From Ktedonobacteraceae bacterium (GTDB lineage: Bacteria > Chloroflexota > Ktedonobacteria > Ktedonobacterales > Ktedonobacteraceae), in assembly GCA_035653615.1 (NCBI GenBank), contig DASRBN010000019.1, forward strand, positions 62,001 to 126,000: a stretch of 64,000 bases of DNA. The letters run 5' to 3'. The translations under genes were made by a program, and so were the position numbers. This document shows positions 26,343 to 46,500 of the stretch, piece after piece; within the stretch, counting starts at the first letter, position 1; every line of letters begins with the position of its first letter. The notes beneath the pieces were generated by a model. The model saw only the letters and a program-made list of their open reading frames with translations. It did no database searches and had not been told where the DNA came from.

Positions 26343-28811
26343 ATGCCCATTATTTTAGATCGCAGTATTTGTTGCGATTTCAACGAAACAATTTCACGGG
26401 AATGGCTGATCACCAACGGCCTGGGAGGTTACGCTGCAGGCACGGTCGCCGGCACGCTGGCACGCATGCAACACGGCCTCCTGGTAGCGCCTCTCCATGA
26501 CGAAGCCATACCTCATGTGTTGCTCGCGAAGATCGACGAAGAGGTCGTCTTCGATCAGCGCACCTACTATCTTGGCACTAACGAGTACCAGGATGGAACG
26601 CTCAACCCCGCGGGTTTTGTCCATCTTGAAACATTCCATCTTGAAGAAGGCTTCCCTGTTTTCACCTACCGCGTGGGCGGGATTCATGGCATTACGCTGG
26701 AGAAACGTATCTGGATGCCACAAGGTTTGCATACGACCTATATCCAGTATCGCGTCCTGCGCGCAATGCCACAAGAGCGCGCCTACAATCATAGAACGCC
26801 CGGCAATGGGCGGATGCAGGGAAATAGCTTCTTACAAGATACGTCGTCGTATGGATATGGGCGCAATAACGGGCGCCCGCAAGAGTTCGCCGCCACGGAG
26901 CCGTCTGCCCTGACGCTGACGTTGCTGCCATTCACCTCCTACCGCCCTTATGATAAGCCGCAATATGGCAACCTCGATTGGCAATTTTCGCTTCAAATGC
27001 ACGCGCCGGAAGCAGGCGACGAAGTGGATAGCAGCGGTTTATCGCAAAGGGCCGGTGAATCGGCGGTGGGCGCGATCAATCGGCCCCTACAGCTTCCCCG
27101 TGGCGTGATCGGCTGTACTATTCGCGCCTGGGAAGGAGCTGTACCTTTCTCGATTTTTGTCGTTGGCCACCCGGAAAGCGAAACGACCTTTCTACCAACT
27201 GGAGTCTGGTACTGGCACTTCCTGCGCAGGCAGGAACAGGCGGCAGGCCTGACCGCGATAGACGACCTCTACCTTCCGGGAGTCATCAAGACTAAACTCT
27301 GGCCCGGCGAGGATGCCACACTGACGATTATTGCGACTACCGAAGAATTGTCGTCTTTGACGTTCGATACAGGCCAGATTGCACGCTCCCGCACTTCCGC
27401 CGTTGAGCGGGCACGCAGTTTTTTACAACCGCAGCGCTACTTTGGCGAGGGCGGTGAAACGGCGCAAACTCTCCCGGTGCTGCCGTTCGCCGCTTCCCGC
27501 GAAGCGCAGATTGATGGCGAAGAGTTCTTACGGCTGCTGCTCCAGGCCGGAGATCGTTTTATCGCGCAGCGCGCGTTGCCCCGCGACAACGAATTTGGCA
27601 ACAATTCCGCGTTCTTTAGTAATACAGAGCACGTTCCGGTTATTGTACCCGGCTATTATGACTTGCACGCTTCAACGCGAGAGGCATTGATTGCGCTTCC
27701 AGGATTGACCCTGGCTACCAGGCGTTATAGCGATGCCCGGCGTATCTTGCGCAGCCTGGCCCGCCATTTCCGGTATGGATTGTTGCCGGACCACCTGCCA
27801 ACACGCGCCGCGCCACTAACAGAGCAGGATTATGGCAGCGTAGATACCGCGCTGTGGTACTTCTACGCTCTTGACTCCTACCTGCGGCTGACGCGGGACC
27901 ATCAATTGCTGGATGATCTCTATACCCGGCTCGCCGATTGTATCTCGGCATACACGCGCGGTACTTCCAATGGTATCCGCGTCGATAGCGGGGACGGCCT
28001 GTTGCAGGCACACTCGACCGGAAAAGCCCTGACATGGATGAATGCCATGGACAATGGCGAACCGGTAACGCCACGCTACGGCAAACCCGTCGAAGTAAAT
28101 GCTTTGTGGTACAACGCGCTACGCCTGATGGATGAGTGGACACACTGGCTTTTCTCGCTGGGCCGCCTTAGCCATACTACTGACTTCTATATAGAGGAAA
28201 GTACGCGCTGTAAGCACAGCTTTAACCGGCGTTTCCAGTACGCGCTTGGTGGTTACCTGTATGATGTAATCGACGGACCGGAAGGTGATGATACGCGCTT
28301 CCGGCCAAATCAACTGCTGGCGCTCTCGCTGCGCTATCCGGTGCTGGATACATCGTTTGCGCGCCTGGTGATGGGACTGGTGACGGAGCGACTGCTAACG
28401 CCTTTCGGCCTGCGCACCCTGGCCCCGGATGAAGCCGGGTATGCAGCTCAGATTCCGGCGAACGCGCGCGAGCAACAGCAAGCGCTGCACCAGGGAAGTG
28501 TCTGGCCCTGGCTGGTCGGGCCATATGTGGACGCAATGCTTCATCTCGAACAATCGAGTGAGGACACGGGCTCCCGTAAGGAGCAGACCTGGCATAAAGG
28601 GCTGCACGCGCTCCAGTCTTTCCGCAGGCAACTTGACCACGGAATGTTAGGCATGATTGGAAATATCTATGATGGTGATGCGAAAGAGAACTCTGAAACT
28701 CATGGGACACAACTTGTGGCTTCGGCCTTGAGTACTGGCGAACTCCTGCGTGTCTATAAGTTGTTAGCGCAAACAGGAATGCGCCATCTCGATACCGCTT
28801 TCTCGGTTTGA
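26343..28811 (+). CDS. Glycogen debranching enzyme (amylo-alpha-1,6-glucosidase type)
   Basis: Hydrolyses or transfers branch residues of glycogen. N-terminal GDE domain (1-300; REWLITNGLGGYAAGTVAGT, RMQHGLLVAPL, DQRTYYLGTNEY), C-terminal (alpha/alpha)6 GH133-like domain (390-810; YGSVDTALWYFYALDSY, KPVEVNALWYNALRLM, HQGSVWPWLVGPYVDA). 822 residues, about 100-150 longer than many bacterial members, partly because residues about 236-258 (QRAGESAVGAINRPLQLPRG and on) are encoded by an in-frame copy of a dispersed palindromic repeat. GAGGAG precedes the ATG. It ends 46 bases before the DnaA-box region. Confidence 0.9.
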   Translation: MPIILDRSICCDFNETISREWLITNGLGGYAAGTVAGTLARMQHGLLVAPLHDEAIPHVLLAKIDEEVVFDQRTYYLGTNEYQDGTLNPAGFVHLETFHLEEGFPVFTYRVGGIHGITLEKRIWMPQGLHTTYIQYRVLRAMPQERAYNHRTPGNGRMQGNSFLQDTSSYGYGRNNGRPQEFAATEPSALTLTLLPFTSYRPYDKPQYGNLDWQFSLQMHAPEAGDEVDSSGLSQRAGESAVGAINRPLQLPRGVIGCTIRAWEGAVPFSIFVVGHPESETTFLPTGVWYWHFLRRQEQAAGLTAIDDLYLPGVIKTKLWPGEDATLTIIATTEELSSLTFDTGQIARSRTSAVERARSFLQPQRYFGEGGETAQTLPVLPFAASREAQIDGEEFLRLLLQAGDRFIAQRALPRDNEFGNNSAFFSNTEHVPVIVPGYYDLHASTREALIALPGLTLATRRYSDARRILRSLARHFRYGLLPDHLPTRAAPLTEQDYGSVDTALWYFYALDSYLRLTRDHQLLDDLYTRLADCISAYTRGTSNGIRVDSGDGLLQAHSTGKALTWMNAMDNGEPVTPRYGKPVEVNALWYNALRLMDEWTHWLFSLGRLSHTTDFYIEESTRCKHSFNRRFQYALGGYLYDVIDGPEGDDTRFRPNQLLALSLRYPVLDTSFARLVMGLVTERLLTPFGLRTLAPDEAGYAAQIPANAREQQQALHQGSVWPWLVGPYVDAMLHLEQSSEDTGSRKEQTWHKGLHALQSFRRQLDHGMLGMIGNIYDGDAKENSETHGTQLVASALSTGELLRVYKLLAQTGMRHLDTAFSV
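27049..27113 (-). repeat. Dispersed palindromic repeat, copy B, in frame inside a gene
   Basis: Reverse-complement orientation to copies A, C and D. It matches the inverted copy C over about 55 bases with few changes (GAATCGGCGGTGGGCGCGAT and on through CGGCCCCTAC-GCTTC-CCG). It adds about 22 codons without a stop between residues DEVDSSGLS and CTIRAW of the debranching enzyme. Confidence 0.75.
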
Positions 28812-28856
28812 GCCTTTGTGGTACCTCGAAGAGGTACTTCTGCACAATTTTCCACC

Positions 28857-28887
28857 GAGTTATCCACATTCATTGTGGATAACTCGC
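28857..28887. repeat. Hairpin of two facing perfect DnaA boxes
   Basis: CGAGTTATCCACA (28857-28869) and TGTGGATAACTCG (28875-28887) with a 5-base loop. Each arm holds the E. coli-consensus DnaA box TTATCCACA. It lies 46 bases after the debranching-enzyme gene and opens the DnaA-box region. Confidence 0.85.
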
Positions 28888-29014
28888 TATTTTTGGCTGC
28901 CGGAACCCCCTGAAAAGATGAACGCAATCACGCTTCTCTTCACATGAAGAGGGGAATGAAAGCGAGCATATATTGATGAATCCCGCAATTTATGAGCGCT
29001 ACCCCGTAAACGAG

Positions 29015-29370
29015 TTTTCCACATTTGTGGTGGATAAGTTTTCCACACTATCCACACAGCAAGCGACTAGATAAGCAGTTTTCCACAAAAATTGTGGACG
29101 AGTTTTCCACACTATCCACATCATAGCCCTGCCATACTGGTTTTCCACATTTGTGGTGGATAAGTTTTCCACACTATCCACATCGTAATCACAGGTGCTT
29201 CTGGTTTTCCACATTTGTGGTGGATAAGTTTTCCACACTATCCACACACCAGGCGGCCAGGTAAGCGGTTTTCCACAAAAATTGTGGACGAGTTTTCCAC
29301 ACTATCCACACAGCAAACATCCAGGCGCGCCACTTTCCCATTTCTTGCGGGCGAGTTTTCCACACACATA
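29015..29370 (+). repeat. Tandem array of DnaA-box units (period 62-64 bp)
   Basis: Five full units begin at 29015, 29079, 29141, 29205 and 29269 (lengths 64, 62, 64, 64, 62), with a degenerate sixth from 29331. Units of 64 read TTTTCCACA-TTTGTGG-TGGATAAG; units of 62 read TTTTCCACA-AAAATTGTGGACGAG. All continue TTTTCCACACTATCCACA followed by a variable 20-base spacer. Confidence 0.9.
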
Positions 29371-30188
29371 GAAGAGATAGATACTATGGAACTCATTTAT
29401 ATTCTAGGGTTAATCACGCCGGAGTACGGAAAAAGTGGATAAGTGGGCCGAAATTGTGGACAACTTCACGAAATTGTGTAAAAGTGCCTGCTTTACCTTT
29501 TGCTTGTTCTACCTGTCCAAAGGGATGAGTTATTGTCCACAATTTTTGTGGACAAGTTATCCCCAGGCCGGGGCAGCGGTGGATAACCACAAATTACTAT
29601 CCACAGCAGTTGGGGATAACTTATCCCCATAGCATGGCGCAGGTGGATAAACAGGTACCGGTTATCCCCAATGAACAGGTTTTTATCCACCCGCCAACTG
29701 CATTTATCCCCATAGAATACACCGCGCTATTCCCGGTGGATAAGTTATCCACGTGTGTTCGAGTGGCTCTCCAGGCTCCTGCGCAGGCAATCCAGATCAG
29801 AGTAAAACGGCGTTACGAGGCACTTATCCACTTTTCCACGCTCCCTACTACTGCTACGAGATTATATTTTGTAATAAAAAGAAAAAAGAATCATAGTAAT
29901 TAGGGGAAGTGGATATGTGGATAAGTGCCTTATAGGAGATTTTTCCAGATGGCCTATGGCAATACTATTGGGGCTTATCGTTCGTATTTAGTAACGAGTA
30001 GTACATTTGGCGTAATATTACTTGTAACCATGTAGAATTATGTAGAATAGCGCGACTTTCTGAGATATGGTTCGTTATATGTGTTGTAAGATAAACAGAG
30101 CAACCCTGTAGCACCACATTTTACCATTCGGCGCCGGTCGTGTTGTCGGCTCTATGGCCGATTCCCCGATTGGAGGATTGAAACAGTA

Positions 30189-32360
30189 ATGGCATCTTTA
30201 ATCGAGGAGATCAAAGCGAAAGTAGATGTGGTGGACGAGGTAGGGCTGGTTGTAGGCCTGCAGAAATCAGGGAAATCCTTGAAAGGGCTGTGTCCCTTTC
30301 ACAACGAGCGCACACCGTCATTTTATGTGTTCCCAGAATCACAGACCTGGCATTGTTTTGGATGTAACGAAGGCGGCGATATCTTTTCGTTCGTCGAGAA
30401 GCAGCAGGGGCTGGAGTTCCGCGATGCCTTGCTCTACCTCGCGGAAAAAGCCGGTATCGCGGTCGAGGGATATGAAGGTGACAGGGACCCGGAGCAGGAA
30501 CGCGAGACACACGCCGCGAAGGAGCGATTGCGCAAGCTCAATGAGGATGCGCAGTTGTGGTTTCACCAGTTGCTATTGCGTTCAAAGGAGGCAGCGGAGG
30601 CACGCGCTTATATAAGGAAGCGCGGCATTTCGACCGAATCGGTGATCGCCTTCGGCCTCGGTTACGCGCCCGACCGCTGGGATGGCTTATGCAACTATCT
30701 GCTGGGCCTTGGCTACAGCGAACGGGAGCTGGTGAATGGTGGGTTGGCGCGGGTGCGCGGCAATACGAGTGTGTGGGAGCCGATGGATGGGCATAACGAG
30801 AGAGCCGGTGAGACTGAAGAAAATGAAGCGGAGCAGGGCGGCAGTAGGAAAAGTGGTGGGGTCTATGATTACTTTCGCAATCGTATCATCTTTCCAATCC
30901 GTGATATACGGGGAAGAGTGATTGGCTTTGGTGGCCGTGCCCTGGGTGACGAGCCGCCGAAGTATCTCAATTCGCCCCAGACGGCGCTCTTTGAAAAAAA
31001 TACGGTGTTGTATGCCCTGGATCTGGCAAGGGAGGCCATCAAGCTTGAGAAGCAGGTGATTATCGTCGAGGGCTATGTCGACGCGATAATCGCCCACCAG
31101 TATGGCACGAAACAGACAGTAGCCTGTATCGGCAGCGCTATAACTGAGAAGCATATCCAGCAGTTGAAGAAGCTGACGAAGCAGGTAACGCTGGCGCTCG
31201 ACCCGGATGCCGCCGGAGCAGCAGCTACCGAGCATGGCATACAGGAGGCTTTGAAAGGCTTTGATCGCAAGGTTGTGCCTGTGCCGCTGGCGGAGGAGGG
31301 TTCCGGGGCGCCACGATGGCGCCGGCGCGCTGAGCCGCGTGGGATGATTCGGCTGGAAGAGCAGGTAGACGCGGAGATCAATGTGCTGCAACTGCCGGCG
31401 GGAGAAGACCCGGATGAGGTGATCCAGCGTGACTTCGTGGCCTGGTCCTACGCGGTAGCGCATCCACTGCCATTGGTCGATTACTACTTTGTAGTGAAGA
31501 CGGCGGACCTGAATTTACGCGAACCGGCTGGCAAAAGTGAGGCCGCGAAACGTCTATTACCAGTAATAGGTATGATTTCTGACCGCATCAAGCGAGACGC
31601 ATATCTGAGAAAACTGGCGGGAATGATCAGTATCGACGAGCGCAGCCTCAACGATGAGTTGCAGCGTCTCCTGAGCAGGCAGAGATCACCCGGGGTGCGG
31701 GCGGAGTTTAAAGAGCGCGGTGGTCAGCACCTGGGAAGTGAGAACGGACGAGCGCAGCCGGCAGAGCATGGAGCGGGCGATGAAGACGAGTTGGCGGCGG
31801 GGCAAAAGGAGCAGGGAGGCCAGGCGAAGGGGCAAGCAAGGGGAGAGGAGCGAGAGCGAGAAAAAACAAGAACATTTGGACTTGACAGGTATAGTCGTAA
31901 TAGGTTACAATGGGAGGACTACCTGATTGGGCTACTCTTGAAGAATCCTGGGCTAAGTAAACATATTTGTGGTATAATAACAGATGGTGACTTTGCCGGG
32001 ACAGACACGCGAGAGTTGTACCGCATAATCAACACGGTGTATCAACGTGGTTCTTCCCCCTTATATCAACCCTTTGAAGAATATGTGCCTTCTGTGTTGC
32101 TGGGAACGCTGGCGCGAGCACGGAAGAACATTGAAGCAGGATCGCCTTTAGATGGTGAGGGGTTGATTAGAGATGCGGAACAATGCGCTTTTCGCCTCAA
32201 ACGCGCATCTCTGAGAAAAAAGATTACAGAACTTGGGAACATTCTAAGAGAGGCGGAAAGCGCGCGCGATATTGCTACGACTCGGCAGTATCAAGAGCAA
32301 TTGCAGGAATGCTACCGGCAGTTGCGCACGATTGACTCGGCAACACATTTACAGGGATGA
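30189..32360 (+). CDS. dnaG: DNA primase
   Basis: Makes RNA primers at the fork. N-terminal zinc-binding domain CPFHNERTPSF...CFGC (C35, H38, C56, C59), catalytic core with YFRNRIIFPIRD, TOPRIM centre IIVEGYVDAI (E294) and LDPDAAG (D338, D340), and a C-terminal helicase-binding domain (QWEDYLIGLLLKNPG to the end). 723 residues, about 120 longer than usual because of three extra hydrophilic stretches: about 188-223, 369-392 (arginine-rich) and a charged linker of about 500-565. Starts after GGAGG. Lies next to the candidate origin and upstream of the primary sigma factor, as in the classic dnaG-rpoD arrangement. Confidence 0.96.
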   Translation: MASLIEEIKAKVDVVDEVGLVVGLQKSGKSLKGLCPFHNERTPSFYVFPESQTWHCFGCNEGGDIFSFVEKQQGLEFRDALLYLAEKAGIAVEGYEGDRDPEQERETHAAKERLRKLNEDAQLWFHQLLLRSKEAAEARAYIRKRGISTESVIAFGLGYAPDRWDGLCNYLLGLGYSERELVNGGLARVRGNTSVWEPMDGHNERAGETEENEAEQGGSRKSGGVYDYFRNRIIFPIRDIRGRVIGFGGRALGDEPPKYLNSPQTALFEKNTVLYALDLAREAIKLEKQVIIVEGYVDAIIAHQYGTKQTVACIGSAITEKHIQQLKKLTKQVTLALDPDAAGAAATEHGIQEALKGFDRKVVPVPLAEEGSGAPRWRRRAEPRGMIRLEEQVDAEINVLQLPAGEDPDEVIQRDFVAWSYAVAHPLPLVDYYFVVKTADLNLREPAGKSEAAKRLLPVIGMISDRIKRDAYLRKLAGMISIDERSLNDELQRLLSRQRSPGVRAEFKERGGQHLGSENGRAQPAEHGAGDEDELAAGQKEQGGQAKGQARGEEREREKTRTFGLDRYSRNRLQWEDYLIGLLLKNPGLSKHICGIITDGDFAGTDTRELYRIINTVYQRGSSPLYQPFEEYVPSVLLGTLARARKNIEAGSPLDGEGLIRDAEQCAFRLKRASLRKKITELGNILREAESARDIATTRQYQEQLQECYRQLRTIDSATHLQG

Positions 32361-32681: not shown

Positions 32682-34103
32682 ATGGTGAATATGGAAGCCA
32701 ATAAGAACGGCGCCGGTGCGGCGACGCTGCGTACCCGGCGCCACAACAAAATCTCAGAAATGCAAGATCTGATTGAGAATGTGCAGCGTCCACAAACGGA
32801 GCCTTTGAGAAATATGTATGCAAATGAGGTTGACGCCTATGCAGCGCGCAGTGTGCGACAGAACGAGTTTGAAGCGCCATTCGAGGAATCTCTATTAGGC
32901 AAGGATGATAGCTTTATCGGCATTGGCGACATCGGGGATATGGGTGATATGCGGGAGACAGGCAATTTAGGCGATCTGGGTCATGATGTTCACGCGACAA
33001 CGGGCGGGAGTCTGGTGACGCCTGTCGATACGCCTGAGTCATTTGACCTGTTTGCGAAGCTACAGGATGATGAAGGTATGGATGCGCTGGATCCAAGCAA
33101 GGAGCCACCGGCTGACTGGGAGCCCGGCCCAGAAGATGAGGTCGATGTGGAGCAAATGGGGCACTCACGGTGGGATGACTTGCACGATGGTATGGGTATT
33201 ATTGTTGCCGACCTGGAGAGCAGCCTGGACGATCCCGTCCGCATGTACCTGCGTGAGATCGGGCGCGTTCCCCTGCTTTCTGCGGAGGAGGAGGTTCGCC
33301 TGGCGCAACGGATGGAGCGCGGGCGCGCTGAGCTGCTGAAGCCGGTGACGAGCCGGAACTATCGCCTGATCGATGACGGCGAGGAGGCGCAGCGGCGCCT
33401 GACAGAAGCGAATTTGCGCCTCGTGGTGAGCGTTGCCAAAAAGTATATCGGGCGCGGCATGAGCCTGCTGGACCTGATCCAGGAGGGTAATATCGGCCTT
33501 ATCCGGGCCGTGGAGAAGTTCGACTATACAAAAGGCTATAAATTCAGCACGTATGCGACGTGGTGGATTCGCCAGGCAATCACGCGCGCCATCGCGGACC
33601 AGGCGCGCACGATTCGCATTCCGGTGCATATGGTGGAAACCATCAACCGCCTGATTCGTATCAGCCGCCGCCTGCTGCAAGACCTGGGGCGCGAGCCTAC
33701 ATCCGAGGAAATCGCCGCTCAGATGGAGATCAGCCCGGAGAAGGTGCGTGAGATCATCAAGGTCAGCCAGGAACCGGTCAGCCTGGAGACGCCGATTGGC
33801 GAAGAGGAAGACAGCCACCTGGGTGACTTCATCGAGGATCACACCGCCCTGGCGCCTGCCGATGCAGCCAGCCACCAGCTCCTCAAGGAGCAGGTGGAGG
33901 ATGTCCTCGACAGCCTGACGGAGCGCGAGCGTAAGGTATTGCAACTGCGCTTCGGCCTGGACGATGGACGCAGCCGCACGCTTGAGGAAGTCGGCAAGGA
34001 GTTCCACGTCACGCGCGAGCGTATCCGGCAAATCGAGGCCAAGGCCCTGCGCAAGCTGCGCCACCCCAGCCGCAGCCGCAAGCTGAAAGATTACCTGGAT
34101 TAA
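32682..34103 (+). CDS. rpoD: RNA polymerase primary (RpoD/SigA-type) sigma factor
   Basis: Directs RNA polymerase to housekeeping promoters. Region 1.2 [21 protein letters not shown], region 2 [20 protein letters not shown] and [14 protein letters not shown], region 3 [13 protein letters not shown], region 4 LTEREQ-like [15 protein letters not shown] and the helix-turn-helix [20 protein letters not shown]. 473 residues; the acidic N-terminal 170 residues are poorly conserved and include short GD-repeats ([20 protein letters not shown]). GAAGGGGG precedes the ATG. A strong terminator follows. The consensus promoters seen in this window suit this factor. Confidence 0.95.
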
Positions 34104-41968: not shown

Positions 41969-41984
41969 TGTTTCACGTGAAACA
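41969..41984. promoter_or_regulatory. parS site 1 (ParB-binding centromere)
   Basis: TGTTTCACGTGAAACA, a 16/16 match to the bacterial chromosomal parS consensus. The palindrome extends further through ATATATA/TATATAT flanks. Upstream of gap. Confidence 0.92.
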
Positions 41985-42175
41985 TATATAGGACTCTGTC
42001 ATCCATCTGTAGGGACAGCGGCTCGTCGCTGTCCTGGTCGCCCGCCTTTCACTTGCTTCCAACCTTTTTCTTCCCTCCCAGGGTAGCATTGTGAAGTCAC
42101 AAAACGATCACAGAAATGAGAAGGAAGATCACAATGGGTTTACAAAGAAAGAGTATCACCGCAGTTGTGGGACGG

Positions 42176-43651
42176 TCAAGGTCGATTATCGATAACCGGA
42201 ACAGGTATGACGCCAATTGAGAAACGTACGTAGTCATCGGTATAGCCAAACCCGCTGCCGGGAACTCCTGCGATACCCGTTTTTTCGAAAGCGGAGAATG
42301 CATCCTCTCCTGGCCGCAACTGGCTCCAATTATAAACGGTCGCATCGTCGCCAACATGTATCTGGTTGAAAATCTGAAATTCTTCGTCCAGGCGCTGCAG
42401 CTGTGCAATCAGCCGGTTGCGTCGCAGGCGATAGAAAGCTCGCAACTTTTCAAGCAACCAGGGACGCGCCTGTATCAAACGAGTATATGCCATGTAGCGT
42501 AGTTGCCATTCGGCGGGTAGCGATGCCATGCTATTCGCCCAACAAACAATCACTTTCGATGCGACCTGCGGACTGCCAATCGTAACCCAGCCGAAACGCT
42601 CGCCTGTCAGCGTATACGATTTGGAAAAACTGCTGATAAAAAAGGTATGCGCATAGACATCGGGAACGTTGAAGGTAGCCATGCGGGCCTGGTCCTCTTC
42701 CTGTATGCCGGTGCCGATATAGGCGAGGTCCGCCAGGATATAAATTTCACGGCCTGATTCCCAGTACTTTCTCAGCACAGCGAAGATCCGGTTGAGTTCA
42801 TCCGGTGTATAGGCAAAGGTGGTCGGATTGTTTGTAACGGTAAGGTAAAATGCGCGAATATCCGGCGTCTGCGCGAGTATGTCATCGAGTTGCTGCGCCG
42901 TAAGTTTGAAGTAATTGGCGGCATCTGTATGAAATTTGTGCAGGCGATAGCCATACGATTGTGCCTGCCACTCCGGTACATTAAAGCCTGGAGTAGGGAA
43001 CAGCACGGCGATATCGCTATGCCGTTGATCTTTGAAGAGTACGGCCAGCCCGCGCAAAACTTTGTCGATGATGTCCATCGCGCCTAACCCCAGGTATAGC
43101 TGTTCTGCTGTAGCAGCAATGCCCCATTTTCGCGTTTCCCCGGCGAGCCAGCCACGCAGGACGATATTGCCGTTGCCATATATATCGTAAATCCGCAGAT
43201 CGATGCCTTGTTGTAGCAGTTCTCTTTCACATACCTGCATCTGTTCGCGCAGCCAGAGGTAGGTTTCGCCGCTGGCCACGTAGCCATGCAGTGGTTCGCC
43301 CGGCAGAGCGACTCCCAGCTCGTCGGCGAGGAGTCGATAATCGCGCGGGCCTCCTGGCTCTCCTTCGTATTCCGTAATGTTGCGCAGGTTCACGTCGCCT
43401 ATCGTGCGGTTGACAATTTCAGACTGGATAACTTCCTCCGAGAGGTGAAGTTCGCGACAATGCTGTTCCAATTCATGCACCATGCGAGCCATTACGCGGA
43501 TGGGACTCGAGCCTTCCTGGACAAGGGGGCGATAGTGAGGAACTGCCTGCTGGCGGAGCTGCCGGATGATAGCAGCTTGTTCTTGAAACGAGGGTGACGA
43601 TACATCAAGTGAGTCGGGCGAATCCACAGGTGGTTGATCGTGGGTAATCAC
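42176..43651 (-). CDS. PLP-dependent class I/II aminotransferase
   Basis: Fold-type I aminotransferase, 491 residues, longer than the usual 390-430 because of an extra N-terminal 90 residues (LSEEVIQSEIVNRTIGDVNL). The PLP lysine is in SSFSKSYTLTGERFGW; other cofactor contacts are TVTNNPTTFAYTP and ILADLAYIGTG, and the C-terminal arginine lies in YVRFSIGVIP. The general layout recalls aspartate aminotransferase/decarboxylase relatives, but the substrate is not evident. Flanked by parS sites on both sides, and divergent to nothing: all neighbours are on the minus strand. Confidence 0.82.
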   Translation of the reverse strand: MITHDQPPVDSPDSLDVSSPSFQEQAAIIRQLRQQAVPHYRPLVQEGSSPIRVMARMVHELEQHCRELHLSEEVIQSEIVNRTIGDVNLRNITEYEGEPGGPRDYRLLADELGVALPGEPLHGYVASGETYLWLREQMQVCERELLQQGIDLRIYDIYGNGNIVLRGWLAGETRKWGIAATAEQLYLGLGAMDIIDKVLRGLAVLFKDQRHSDIAVLFPTPGFNVPEWQAQSYGYRLHKFHTDAANYFKLTAQQLDDILAQTPDIRAFYLTVTNNPTTFAYTPDELNRIFAVLRKYWESGREIYILADLAYIGTGIQEEDQARMATFNVPDVYAHTFFISSFSKSYTLTGERFGWVTIGSPQVASKVIVCWANSMASLPAEWQLRYMAYTRLIQARPWLLEKLRAFYRLRRNRLIAQLQRLDEEFQIFNQIHVGDDATVYNWSQLRPGEDAFSAFEKTGIAGVPGSGFGYTDDYVRFSIGVIPVPVIDNRP

Positions 43652-43773
43652 CAGTTTTACTCCCTTCGGTTACGCAACACCGGCGTAGCTTGCTAGATGC
43701 CGGTCTCCATTGACCGGCGACTACTACAGAGTGTAGCATATTGGGAAGGGTAAAACAAGCTGAGGTAATACCA

Positions 43774-43789
43774 TGTTTCACGTGAAACA
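43774..43789. promoter_or_regulatory. parS site 2
   Basis: TGTTTCACGTGAAACA, perfect. In the short gap between the hutH stop (43808) and the aminotransferase start (43651). A 7-bp hairpin GCCGGTC/GACCGGC lies 55 bases away at about 43700-43719. Confidence 0.92.
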
Positions 43790-43807
43790 TATTTGTGGAA
43801 CCAATTC

Positions 43808-45349
43808 TTACCCTATACTCTCAAATGCTCCCACCTTAACTGCTTCGACTAAGACAGCAATATCTGGCGCCAGCGTGCGATCATGTTCCAGTTTTGGCAC
43901 GTATGAGCGCACAATCTCAAATGCCTGCTGTACGCCCTGGCCGGGTTTGAGCGGTTTGCGAAATTCCAGCATCTGGGCGGCGCACATCAATTCGATGGCG
44001 ACAACCTGGCGCGCCTGTTCAATGAGGCGCTGAACCTTATGCGCTGCCGTTGCTCCCATGCTATTGAAGTCCTCCATACCGGCAGAGGTCGGTATCGAAT
44101 CAATGCTGGCAGGATGCGCCAGTATTTTGATCTCATTGACCAGCGCCGCCGCGACATATTGCGCGATCATGAAGCCGGAGTTCAGACCGGGATTCGGCGT
44201 CAAAAAGAGCGGCGCGCCACCCTCGTCCCAATCGTGTGGGCCTAATAGATTGAAGATGCGGCGCTCGGAAAAACTTGCCAGTTGGGCGAGCGAGATAGCC
44301 AGTACGTCGAGCGCCATCGCCAGTGGTTGCCCGTGAAAATTGCCCCCACTCAACACAACGCCATCCTCTGGGAAAACGAGCGGATTATCGGTCACGGCGT
44401 CCAGTTCGCGCTCAAAAATGTTGGAGCAATACTCTATAGCGTCGCGTATCGCTCCGAAGACTTGCGGCGCGCAGCGCATCGTGTAAGGGTCTTGCACGCG
44501 CGGGCAATCGCGATGGCTAAGATTGATTTCGCTTTCGCGCAACAAATGGCGCAAACGTGCGGCGCTCTCCTGCTGTCCCAGTTGACCACGGCGCTTTGAG
44601 ATGCGGGCATCAAAAGGCACGTGGCTGCCCATCAAACCCTCGATGCTCATGGCAGCTGCAACTTCCGCCGCTCGCAGCAGCACCTGCGCATCGGCAAGCG
44701 CCAGCACGGCAATCGCCTCCATCAGGTGCGTTCCATTGATCAGCGCGAGACCTTCTTTAGCATGCAGTTGCAGCGGTTCGAGATCAGCATGCCGCAAAGC
44801 TTCCATTCCCGTAACAATGTGGCCGTCATAAAATGCCTCACCTTCTCCTATAATGATCAAGCCAAGATGCGCAAGCGGGGCAAGATCACCGCTCGCACCT
44901 ACCGATCCACGCGAGGGAATGCGAGGATAAATTCTGGTATTGAGCATGCTTATGAGCAGCTGCACAACTTCCGGGCGGACGCCGGAATTGCCGCGTGCCA
45001 GGCTTGCCGCCAGCAGCAGCATGATGGCTCGCGCGACCTCCTCGCTCAGAGGCTCTCCAACCCCTGACGCGTGACTGCGCAAAAGATTGTGCTGCAGATC
45101 TACCAGTTGCTCATGGGGAATGCGCACCCGGCTCAAGTGACCAAATCCGGTGGTTACGCCATATACTTTTTGATCCTCGTCCGCCAGTTTATCGATTACC
45201 GCCCTGGCTGCAAGAATGCTATCGAGAGATTCTGCGCCTAAAACAACCGGCGCGTAGTGGCGGGCGACGGCCAGCACTTCTGGAACCGTCAAGGTCTGCC
45301 CATTAAGAGTCACGCCGGCAGGTAATGTAACGTGTGTGTCTATCTTCAT
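43808..45349 (-). CDS. hutH: Histidine ammonia-lyase
   Basis: Deaminates histidine to urocanate, first step of histidine breakdown. 513 residues. The self-forming MIO cofactor triad Ala-Ser-Gly lies in RGSVGASGDLAPLAHLGL. Other blocks: YGVTTGFGHLSR, NLLRSHASGVGEPL, QDPYTMRCAPQVFGAIRD, DNPLVF and GNFHGQPLAMALD. Same strand as hutI, but a broken glycosyltransferase gene and two parS sites lie between them. hutU is not in the window. Confidence 0.96.
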   Translation of the reverse strand: MKIDTHVTLPAGVTLNGQTLTVPEVLAVARHYAPVVLGAESLDSILAARAVIDKLADEDQKVYGVTTGFGHLSRVRIPHEQLVDLQHNLLRSHASGVGEPLSEEVARAIMLLLAASLARGNSGVRPEVVQLLISMLNTRIYPRIPSRGSVGASGDLAPLAHLGLIIIGEGEAFYDGHIVTGMEALRHADLEPLQLHAKEGLALINGTHLMEAIAVLALADAQVLLRAAEVAAAMSIEGLMGSHVPFDARISKRRGQLGQQESAARLRHLLRESEINLSHRDCPRVQDPYTMRCAPQVFGAIRDAIEYCSNIFERELDAVTDNPLVFPEDGVVLSGGNFHGQPLAMALDVLAISLAQLASFSERRIFNLLGPHDWDEGGAPLFLTPNPGLNSGFMIAQYVAAALVNEIKILAHPASIDSIPTSAGMEDFNSMGATAAHKVQRLIEQARQVVAIELMCAAQMLEFRKPLKPGQGVQQAFEIVRSYVPKLEHDRTLAPDIAVLVEAVKVGAFESIG

Positions 45350-45465
45350 CGGAGAAGTCGTCCTTTCTGGCTACGATGCCTGTATATGCATTGTAACAGA
45401 TAGACGAGCGTCATGTAAAAGCATCTGAGACCCAATAATAAGTTTTCAAAAATACCCGGCAACAG

Positions 45466-45493
45466 GTCGATTGATTGTGCCCACCGCCGATAA
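45466..45493 (+). repeat. Partial copy of the dispersed palindromic repeat
   Basis: GTCGATTGATTGTGCCCACC and GCCGATA match the right half of copies A, C and D. Confidence 0.5.
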
Positions 45494-45519
45494 TGAAATT
45501 TCACCAGCATAACACGAAT

Positions 45520-46358
45520 TTATTCTTGTCTTTTATCTCGCAAGATTTGCTCAATCGCCACGCGCAATGTTGCCACTCCATCTTCCTGCATGATTCTGGC
45601 CTGTACCTTACGGGCTTGCTCTTGATAGGTCGGGGTATATAGAAGTGCATTCAAGGCTTGCCTGGCGCGCCTGGCTGTATAGTGCTTGCGCGATATCCAT
45701 ATCCCGGCTTTGCGCAGCGCAACCTGCGCCGCATTGAAAGGTTGATCCATGCCTCCTGGCACTACCAGGGATGGAACCCCGGCTCGCAAACATTGCCCAA
45801 TTGTTCCAATACCCCCATGATGAATCACTGCCGCGCACGATGGAAAAATCTGAGAAAAGGGCGCGAAGGAGATATTGAGAACATCGTCATTATCCTCAAT
45901 GGAACCGGGCATTTCGGGTTCATTGAGCAATAACGCCCGTGCGCCACACGCGAGAATGCTTTCTGCACTGGTACGGTAGTAAGGAGCGAATAGTGTGCGC
46001 TCGCCAGGTGCAACGGTACCGGAAGTAACCGTCACCACAGGCTTTCTCCCATTCAGAAATGCTTTGAGCTTTGCAGGAAACTGCCAGTCTACCGACCCAT
46101 CCCAGAAGCAAAAGCCTGTCACTCGAATATACTCCGGCCAGTCGTCCTGGCGAGGCATAAACGCGGGAGAAACCGCCAGGGCCGTGAATGTGGGTGATAG
46201 ATTGCCGGTCCACATCAGATTGGCGCCTGGTTGCACGTGGAACTTGCGCCGGACCTGGTTCACCGGTTTGTCGACGATGCGGCGCAGGACTATCCCACCA
46301 AGAAACAAGGATTGAGATCACCGCTTGAGCCAAAAGTAGTGATTACAATACGAGCCAT
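45520..46358 (-). pseudogene. MGT-type glycosyltransferase with internal deletion
   Basis: UDP-glycosyltransferase/MGT family, normally about 400-430 residues. A true N-terminus starts at 46358 (MARIVITTFGSSGDLNP, with a ribosome site GAGGAAGAG), but after 17 residues it runs into CFLVG and a stop. From 46308 another frame gives 262 residues of the C-terminal half (GGIVLRRIVDKPVN, TVTSGTVAPGE, HHGGIGTIGQCLRAGVPSLVVPGGMDQPFNA), including the nucleotide-sugar motif. About 150 codons of the acceptor-binding domain are deleted near 46300-46310, with a frame change. Not functional. Confidence 0.8.
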
Positions 46359-46447
46359 CTCTTCCTCTTTCGGAGATTCATTTCTGTAAGATCAGGTCAA
46401 TTTCTTCGACGCTGTTTTAGCCAGGCAAATTGCAGTAGAAAATGAAA

Positions 46448-46463
46448 TGTTTCACGTGAAACA
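46448..46463. promoter_or_regulatory. parS site 3
   Basis: TGTTTCACGTGAAACA, perfect. Between the glycosyltransferase pseudogene and hutI, 37 bases from site 4. Confidence 0.92.
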
Positions 46464-46484
46464 TCGCTTCTGTAAAACGACGGA

Positions 46485-46500
46485 TGTTTCACGTGAAACA
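46485..46500. promoter_or_regulatory. parS site 4
   Basis: TGTTTCACGTGAAACA, perfect. It lies 14 bases beyond the stop codon of hutI; with site 3 it forms a close tandem pair. Confidence 0.92.

Follow-up and report, generated by a model that had tools for sequence, protein, structure and literature searches.

The box, spacer and trio parts that make up the basal unwinding system (BUS) of Bacillus subtilis and many other bacteria are defined as one or more DnaA boxes, a spacer of up to 16 bp and at least three consecutive trios with a central A (PMC8287927). The means by which a bacterial origin loads its two helicases in opposite directions has been described as unclear (PMC10201434). In the 245-bp oriC of E. 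coli, separate DnaA sub-complexes have been proposed to load the two helicases (PMC13220808). The origin of Synechococcus lividus PCC 6715 is distant from both dnaA and dnaN (DoriC 10, PMC6323995). For the Ktedonobacteria, a 2026 paper describes a cumulative skew that is V-shaped, the origin called by Ori-Finder lying at the V (PMC13289182), and its main text makes no mention of dnaG or DnaA boxes. Our survey, confined to open-access papers, found no report of a Ktedonobacter oriC, a box array, polar triplets or a mirrored or inverted BUS.

The locus considered here, a DnaA-box array upstream of dnaG, shares with the B. subtilis BUS a box doublet, a C-rich spacer, CTA-type trios and A+T-rich DNA, and DnaD- and DnaI-like genes are present; unlike that system, its core is not beside dnaA and has an inverted partner across the A+T stretch. 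It further differs from B. subtilis oriC in its polar box triplets, in the 26-68 boxes that the arrays of its relatives hold where not cut by a contig end, and in the company of two dnaA paralogues. As in E. coli, the origin would lie away from dnaA with its box array beside a DNA unwinding element (DUE), although the E. coli boxes lie on one side of the DUE, unlike those here, and are far fewer. A cluster of TTTTCCACA-type boxes remote from both of these genes, dnaA and dnaN, recalls S. lividus PCC 6715, a single strain from another phylum for which no mirrored core has been described. Dense DnaA boxes away from dnaA also characterize datA and the Streptomyces titration clusters; these hold about five boxes and, unlike the array, lie away from a strand switch and lack a trio core. 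To our knowledge, the array has far more boxes than any described origin.

Placement and architecture of the array

The window, i.e., the whole 64,000-nucleotide stretch that was analysed, comprises bases 62001-126000 of contig C19 from the 6.59-Mb, 44-contig draft genome of a soil bacterium (the query). The best matches of its dnaG (57-67% identical) are in Ktedonobacteria and place the query in that class of Chloroflexota. The features are as follows, in window coordinates:

26343..28811, + strand: glycogen debranching enzyme gene, upstream neighbour (Pfam)
28812..30188, no strand: intergenic region with the whole putative oriC (ORFs, Pfam, DnaA-box cluster)
28860..28882, no strand: perfect facing pair TTATCCACA N5 TGTGGATAA at the distal array end (box search)
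29015..29310, + strand: tandem array of polar box triplets, about five units (box steps across 20 species)
29356..29753, no strand: dispersed DnaA boxes in both orientations, many of the TTATCCCCA or TTATCCACC type (box search)
29824..29840, + strand: DnaA-box doublet TTATCCACTTTTCCACG of the main core (alignment; doublet kept in 16/16 aligned species)
29841..29856, + strand: C-rich spacer and DnaA-trios (alignment, trio count)
29854..29903, no strand: A+T-rich putative DUE (stability scan; second least stable separate 50-mer of the window)
29893..29908, - strand: inverted trio-like repeat and G-rich spacer, about ATCATAGTAATTAGGGG (alignment; degenerate in the query)
29909..29924, - strand: inverted DnaA-box doublet GTGGATATGTGGATAA facing the main core (box search, alignment)
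30189..32360, + strand: dnaG (primase), downstream neighbour (Pfam)
32682..34103, + strand: rpoD-type primary sigma factor gene, beyond dnaG (Pfam)
41969, 43774, 46448 and 46485 (41969..46500), no strand: four perfect parS sites (parS search)

The first-pass annotation had proposed a candidate origin in a gene-free region bounded by a debranching gene and by dnaG and the primary sigma factor gene, citing about 40 DnaA boxes, a perfect facing pair, a tandem array and an A+T-rich stretch at 29862-29905. ORF and Pfam analysis confirms these neighbours and delimits a gap of 1,377 bases between the debranching gene and dnaG. Within 28860-29924 the box count is 38 (at most one mismatch to TTATCCACA), the facing pair is recovered at 28860+ and 28874-, the tandem array is seen at 29015..29310, and the A+T-rich stretch corresponds closely to the 50-mer at 29854-29903. 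About 0.16 boxes would be expected in the array stretch, because shuffles of the window average 9.9 +/- 3.1 sites at this threshold as against the 53 actually present. Only three of the array boxes are perfect matches (28860+, 28874- and 29916-). Of the 97 copies of TTWTCCACA in the genome, 14 or 15 fall inside the array, and no other 1.1-kb stretch checked in the genome has more than three (Poisson P ~1e-37 for the array). The cluster thus stands well above background and is by far the densest of the query draft genome.

The internal order of the boxes is polar. Across 20 species, the dominant steps between neighbours are + to - at 14 bases (facing, 151 cases) and - to + at 10 bases (back-to-back, 150 cases). 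The unit of the tandem array in the query reads box> N5 <box N1 box> box>, with the middle box degraded in some units. Allowing a spacer of 2-5, the triplet box> N5 <box N1 box> occurs in 126 copies pointing at dnaG and the core and in no mirror-image copy; the array is built of polar triplets, all aimed at the unwinding core. In K. rubrisoli, K. racemifer and Ts. hazakensis, too, the array begins with a facing pair like that of the query.

The array is found immediately 5' of dnaG-rpoD in every one of the 19 Ktedonobacteria relatives of the family for which upstream sequence could be read, and the debranching enzyme gene is the next gene upstream in ten of them. Its absence from related genomes, which the first-pass annotation had named as counting against an origin, is therefore not what the family loci display. 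Among ten deeper Ktedonobacterales loci, a few with less than 1.5 kb of upstream DNA, no array was found at dnaG. In brp13 (C1:5636325-5636373) and Dictyobacter aurantiacus (C1:2649015-2649263) a smaller second box cluster lies ~4-5 kb past the array in the direction of dnaG; no such cluster is present at that place in the query. In another Chloroflexota family (loci L254, L255 and L256) the core is single-sided, comprising a box doublet, a C-rich spacer and CTACTACTATTACGA; it is soon followed by a small gene whose product begins MD(I/V)IKVSANSR and looks SpoVS-like.

Smaller groups of boxes are found elsewhere in the query. Three perfect TTATCCACA boxes occur at C44:42507-42559, where a MutL-like gene and a phosphoglycerate mutase gene converge; this site is accordingly not in a promoter, and it is possible that it is a small titration site. 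Two similar pairs, TTTTCCACA...TTATCCACA, at C19:49441-49481 and C19:280757-280797 share a 32-base spacing and the middle TTAGAACATTTGTC, and are perhaps copies of one small element.

The putative unwinding core and its inverted partner

The dnaG-proximal end of the array, judged from its sequence, is a conserved unwinding core, a feature that, like its inverted partner and the polar triplets, is absent from the first-pass annotation. Common to the query and all 19 relatives' loci are a box doublet, a four-base C-rich spacer, CTACTACT-type repeats and ~40 bases of A+T-rich DNA, and in each of those relatives no other 50-mer of the locus is as unstable as the core. In the query, the boxes at 29824-29840 are followed on the top strand by CTCC CTA CTA CTG CTA, i.e., the spacer CTCC and 3'-GAT GAT GAC GAT-5' on the bottom strand, which conforms to the definition of the BUS, with the predicted DUE (29854-29903) beside the boxes. 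By analogy with B. subtilis (PMC10201434, PMC13220808), we infer the following steps of initiation. DnaA supplied by the distant dnaA genes would bind the polar triplets and form an oligomer directed towards dnaG; it would then pass from the doublet over the C-rich spacer onto the bottom-strand trios and, bound there, melt 29854-29903 as the basal unwinding system does. A DnaD/DnaI-type loader, for which genes are present, could then load the helicase, and forks would leave both ways. The large number of boxes probably also titrates DnaA at the origin itself.

Across the A+T-rich stretch lies a second set of elements in the opposite orientation: TAGTAGT-type repeats, a G-rich spacer and inverted boxes are found in 18 of the 19 relatives. 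Dictyobacter has one inverted box, and none was found at the core of Ts. hazakensis. Consecutive inverted trios number two in the query and 3-4 in K. rubrisoli, brp13, K. racemifer and the MAG clean17. On the inverted side of the query, where boxes and spacer are present, the strict trio count falls short of what would be needed to assign a full BUS. In five Thermogemmatispora genomes the exact box-spacer-trio pattern occurs on each strand, at a separation of 60 bases.

The inverted boxes and trio-like repeats probably provide a second, opposite-strand DnaA docking site that aids loading of the second helicase or stabilizes the bubble. A stronger version, which we put forward tentatively and rate somewhat short of an even chance, is a mirrored core, in which opposed box, spacer and trio elements share the A+T stretch and a DnaA filament on each strand guides one helicase; here the tasks may be shared out between the two ancient DnaA paralogues. 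If true, bidirectional loading would be encoded symmetrically in the DNA, as opposed to DnaA acting on one strand and DnaD on the other. Close to evenly balanced is the proposal that the inverted half has no role in unwinding and is an ordinary box pair with inherited or cruciform-forming sequence, the origin otherwise being as stated; the second helicase could in that case be loaded via DnaD on the strand that does not carry the trios, the scheme put forward for B. subtilis (PMC10201434). The DnaD-like gene, the runs of three inverted trios in only some relatives as against two in the query, and the reduced or missing inverted boxes of Dictyobacter and Ts. hazakensis fit this proposal, whereas it does not lead one to expect an inverted motif kept in nearly all relatives at a near-fixed 62-67 bp from box to box while the alignment reveals no conservation in the flanking DNA, or the exact two-stranded pattern of Thermogemmatispora.

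Strand asymmetry, partition sites and alternative readings

The first-pass annotation suggested cumulative GC skew as a check, and the minimum of the window does fall at ~29 kb, as a local minimum. Over the 300-kb contig, the skew is negative throughout to the left of the array, positive for 15 kb to the right, negative from 105 to 150 kb and mostly positive thereafter, with the lowest cumulative point near 150 kb and not at 90 kb; we regard this profile as suggestive, not decisive, for an origin at the array. The ~45 kb of negative skew at C19:105000-150000 (window 43000-64000 and beyond) resemble an inverted or acquired segment. Genome-wide skew was taken from two finished relatives, brp13 (AP024096) and K. 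rubrisoli (CP035758), in 40 samples of 20 kb round the circle and not from the full sequence, and in both the strand switch coincides with the array. The brp13 array (5.63 Mb) lies inside the interval of the cumulative minimum, 5.53-5.73 Mb. The cumulative minimum of K. rubrisoli is at its array (7.353-7.355 Mb), and 20 further samples narrow the change of sign to 7.342-7.367 Mb (9 of 10 fine samples negative to the left of the array, 10 of 10 positive to its right). A two-segment fit to the coarse K. rubrisoli samples puts the break ~0.7-1 Mb left of the array; we gave the cumulative minimum and the fine sampling more weight than this fit. The finished deeper relative CP126532 shows erratic skew and a six-box cluster near parS, in which no recognizable trio core was found.

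The query genome has no exact parS sites other than the four at 12-17 kb from the array, a distance that the first-pass annotation had also given. In the relatives exact parS sites mostly lie 7-35 kb from the array, and nearly all are within tens of kb. Unlike the parS sites, which remain near the array, the parB gene (C19:157924-158322) is at a distance of 66 kb in the query and of 325 kb in K. rubrisoli. The remoteness of the array from any dnaA, another early claim, holds as well: the query dnaA genes are on contigs C22 and C16 and dnaN is on C26, none of them next to the array. In the two finished genomes the dnaA genes are at 5.79/6.87 Mb and 4.75/6.32 Mb, i.e., 0.5-1.6 Mb from the array, and are therefore not at the skew switch.

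Taken with the conserved position, the predicted core, the skew minimum and the parS sites, which support the originally proposed candidate origin, 28860-29924 is very probably the chromosomal replication origin (oriC) of the query. That it is instead a DnaA-titration site of the datA or Streptomyces kind, delaying re-initiation at a true origin elsewhere, might be argued from a number of boxes far above the need of unwinding and from the location of the dnaA genes elsewhere, and origin and titration roles are in any case compatible. As the sole function, however, we consider titration very unlikely, because it leaves unexplained the strand switch, where such a site is not expected and where the array lies in two relatives, as well as the conserved box-spacer-trio-A+T core and the clustering of parS, for which it has no need; nor was any rival cluster of more than three exact boxes seen in the genome. 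The position directly upstream of dnaG in all family members could also be taken to mean that the array is a DnaA-regulated promoter region coupling primase and sigma-factor expression to the DnaA level, with no origin role. To this we attach almost no credence, since the array, which stops some 150-710 bp short of dnaG, greatly exceeds any operator in size, and the skew switch and trio core would again go unexplained; a side role in dnaG control may nonetheless exist.

Many bacterial origins adjoin dnaA, and the 2026 paper calls dnaA/dnaN and parA/parB contiguous on the Ktedonobacteria chromosome (PMC13289182), so that the origin could be sought at a dnaA gene, with the dnaG array as a relic or secondary site. 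A single dnaA/dnaN-parA/parB locus is, however, not what we find in the six genomes searched, where dnaN, parB and dnaA are far apart; moreover, no DnaA-box cluster was found at either query dnaA and neither dnaA is at the skew minimum in K. rubrisoli or brp13, which makes an origin there scarcely plausible.

DnaA paralogues, loaders and the meaning of the locus

Two full-length dnaA genes are present in all 16 Ktedonobacteria genomes examined, one D. vulcani copy being cut short. In a tree, the copies from the 16 genomes separate into two clades, each with full support. The ATP-binding motif and the RDHT/ST DNA-binding motif are retained in each clade, and the recognition-helix motif reads RDHTTIMHG in one and RDHSTVLHA in the other. 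By this sequence evidence, the two genes are products of an ancient duplication in Ktedonobacteria. A DnaD-like gene (PF07261) and a DnaI/IstB-type AAA+ gene occur together at C1:39076-42525 of the query. A PF00308 match on the same contig raised a third dnaA as a candidate, which was rejected as the gene is a DnaI/IstB-type loader. Near these loader genes the query has DnaA boxes at C1:44569 and C1:44581, and box pairs or clusters likewise occur 4-5 kb from the gene's counterpart in K. rubrisoli (8.061 Mb), brp13 (5.049 Mb) and D. aurantiacus (3.223 Mb); DnaA possibly controls the loader operon.

What is new here is the conserved unwinding core predicted for this locus, its inverted partner, the polar triplets and the two apparently ancient dnaA paralogues. 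Origin finders that use dnaA as an indicator may misplace Ktedonobacteria origins. A whole family would have its origin unlinked to dnaA, dnaN and parB, alongside two conserved dnaA genes, and an origin family with a naturally mirrored core would offer a direct test of helicase loading in opposite directions.
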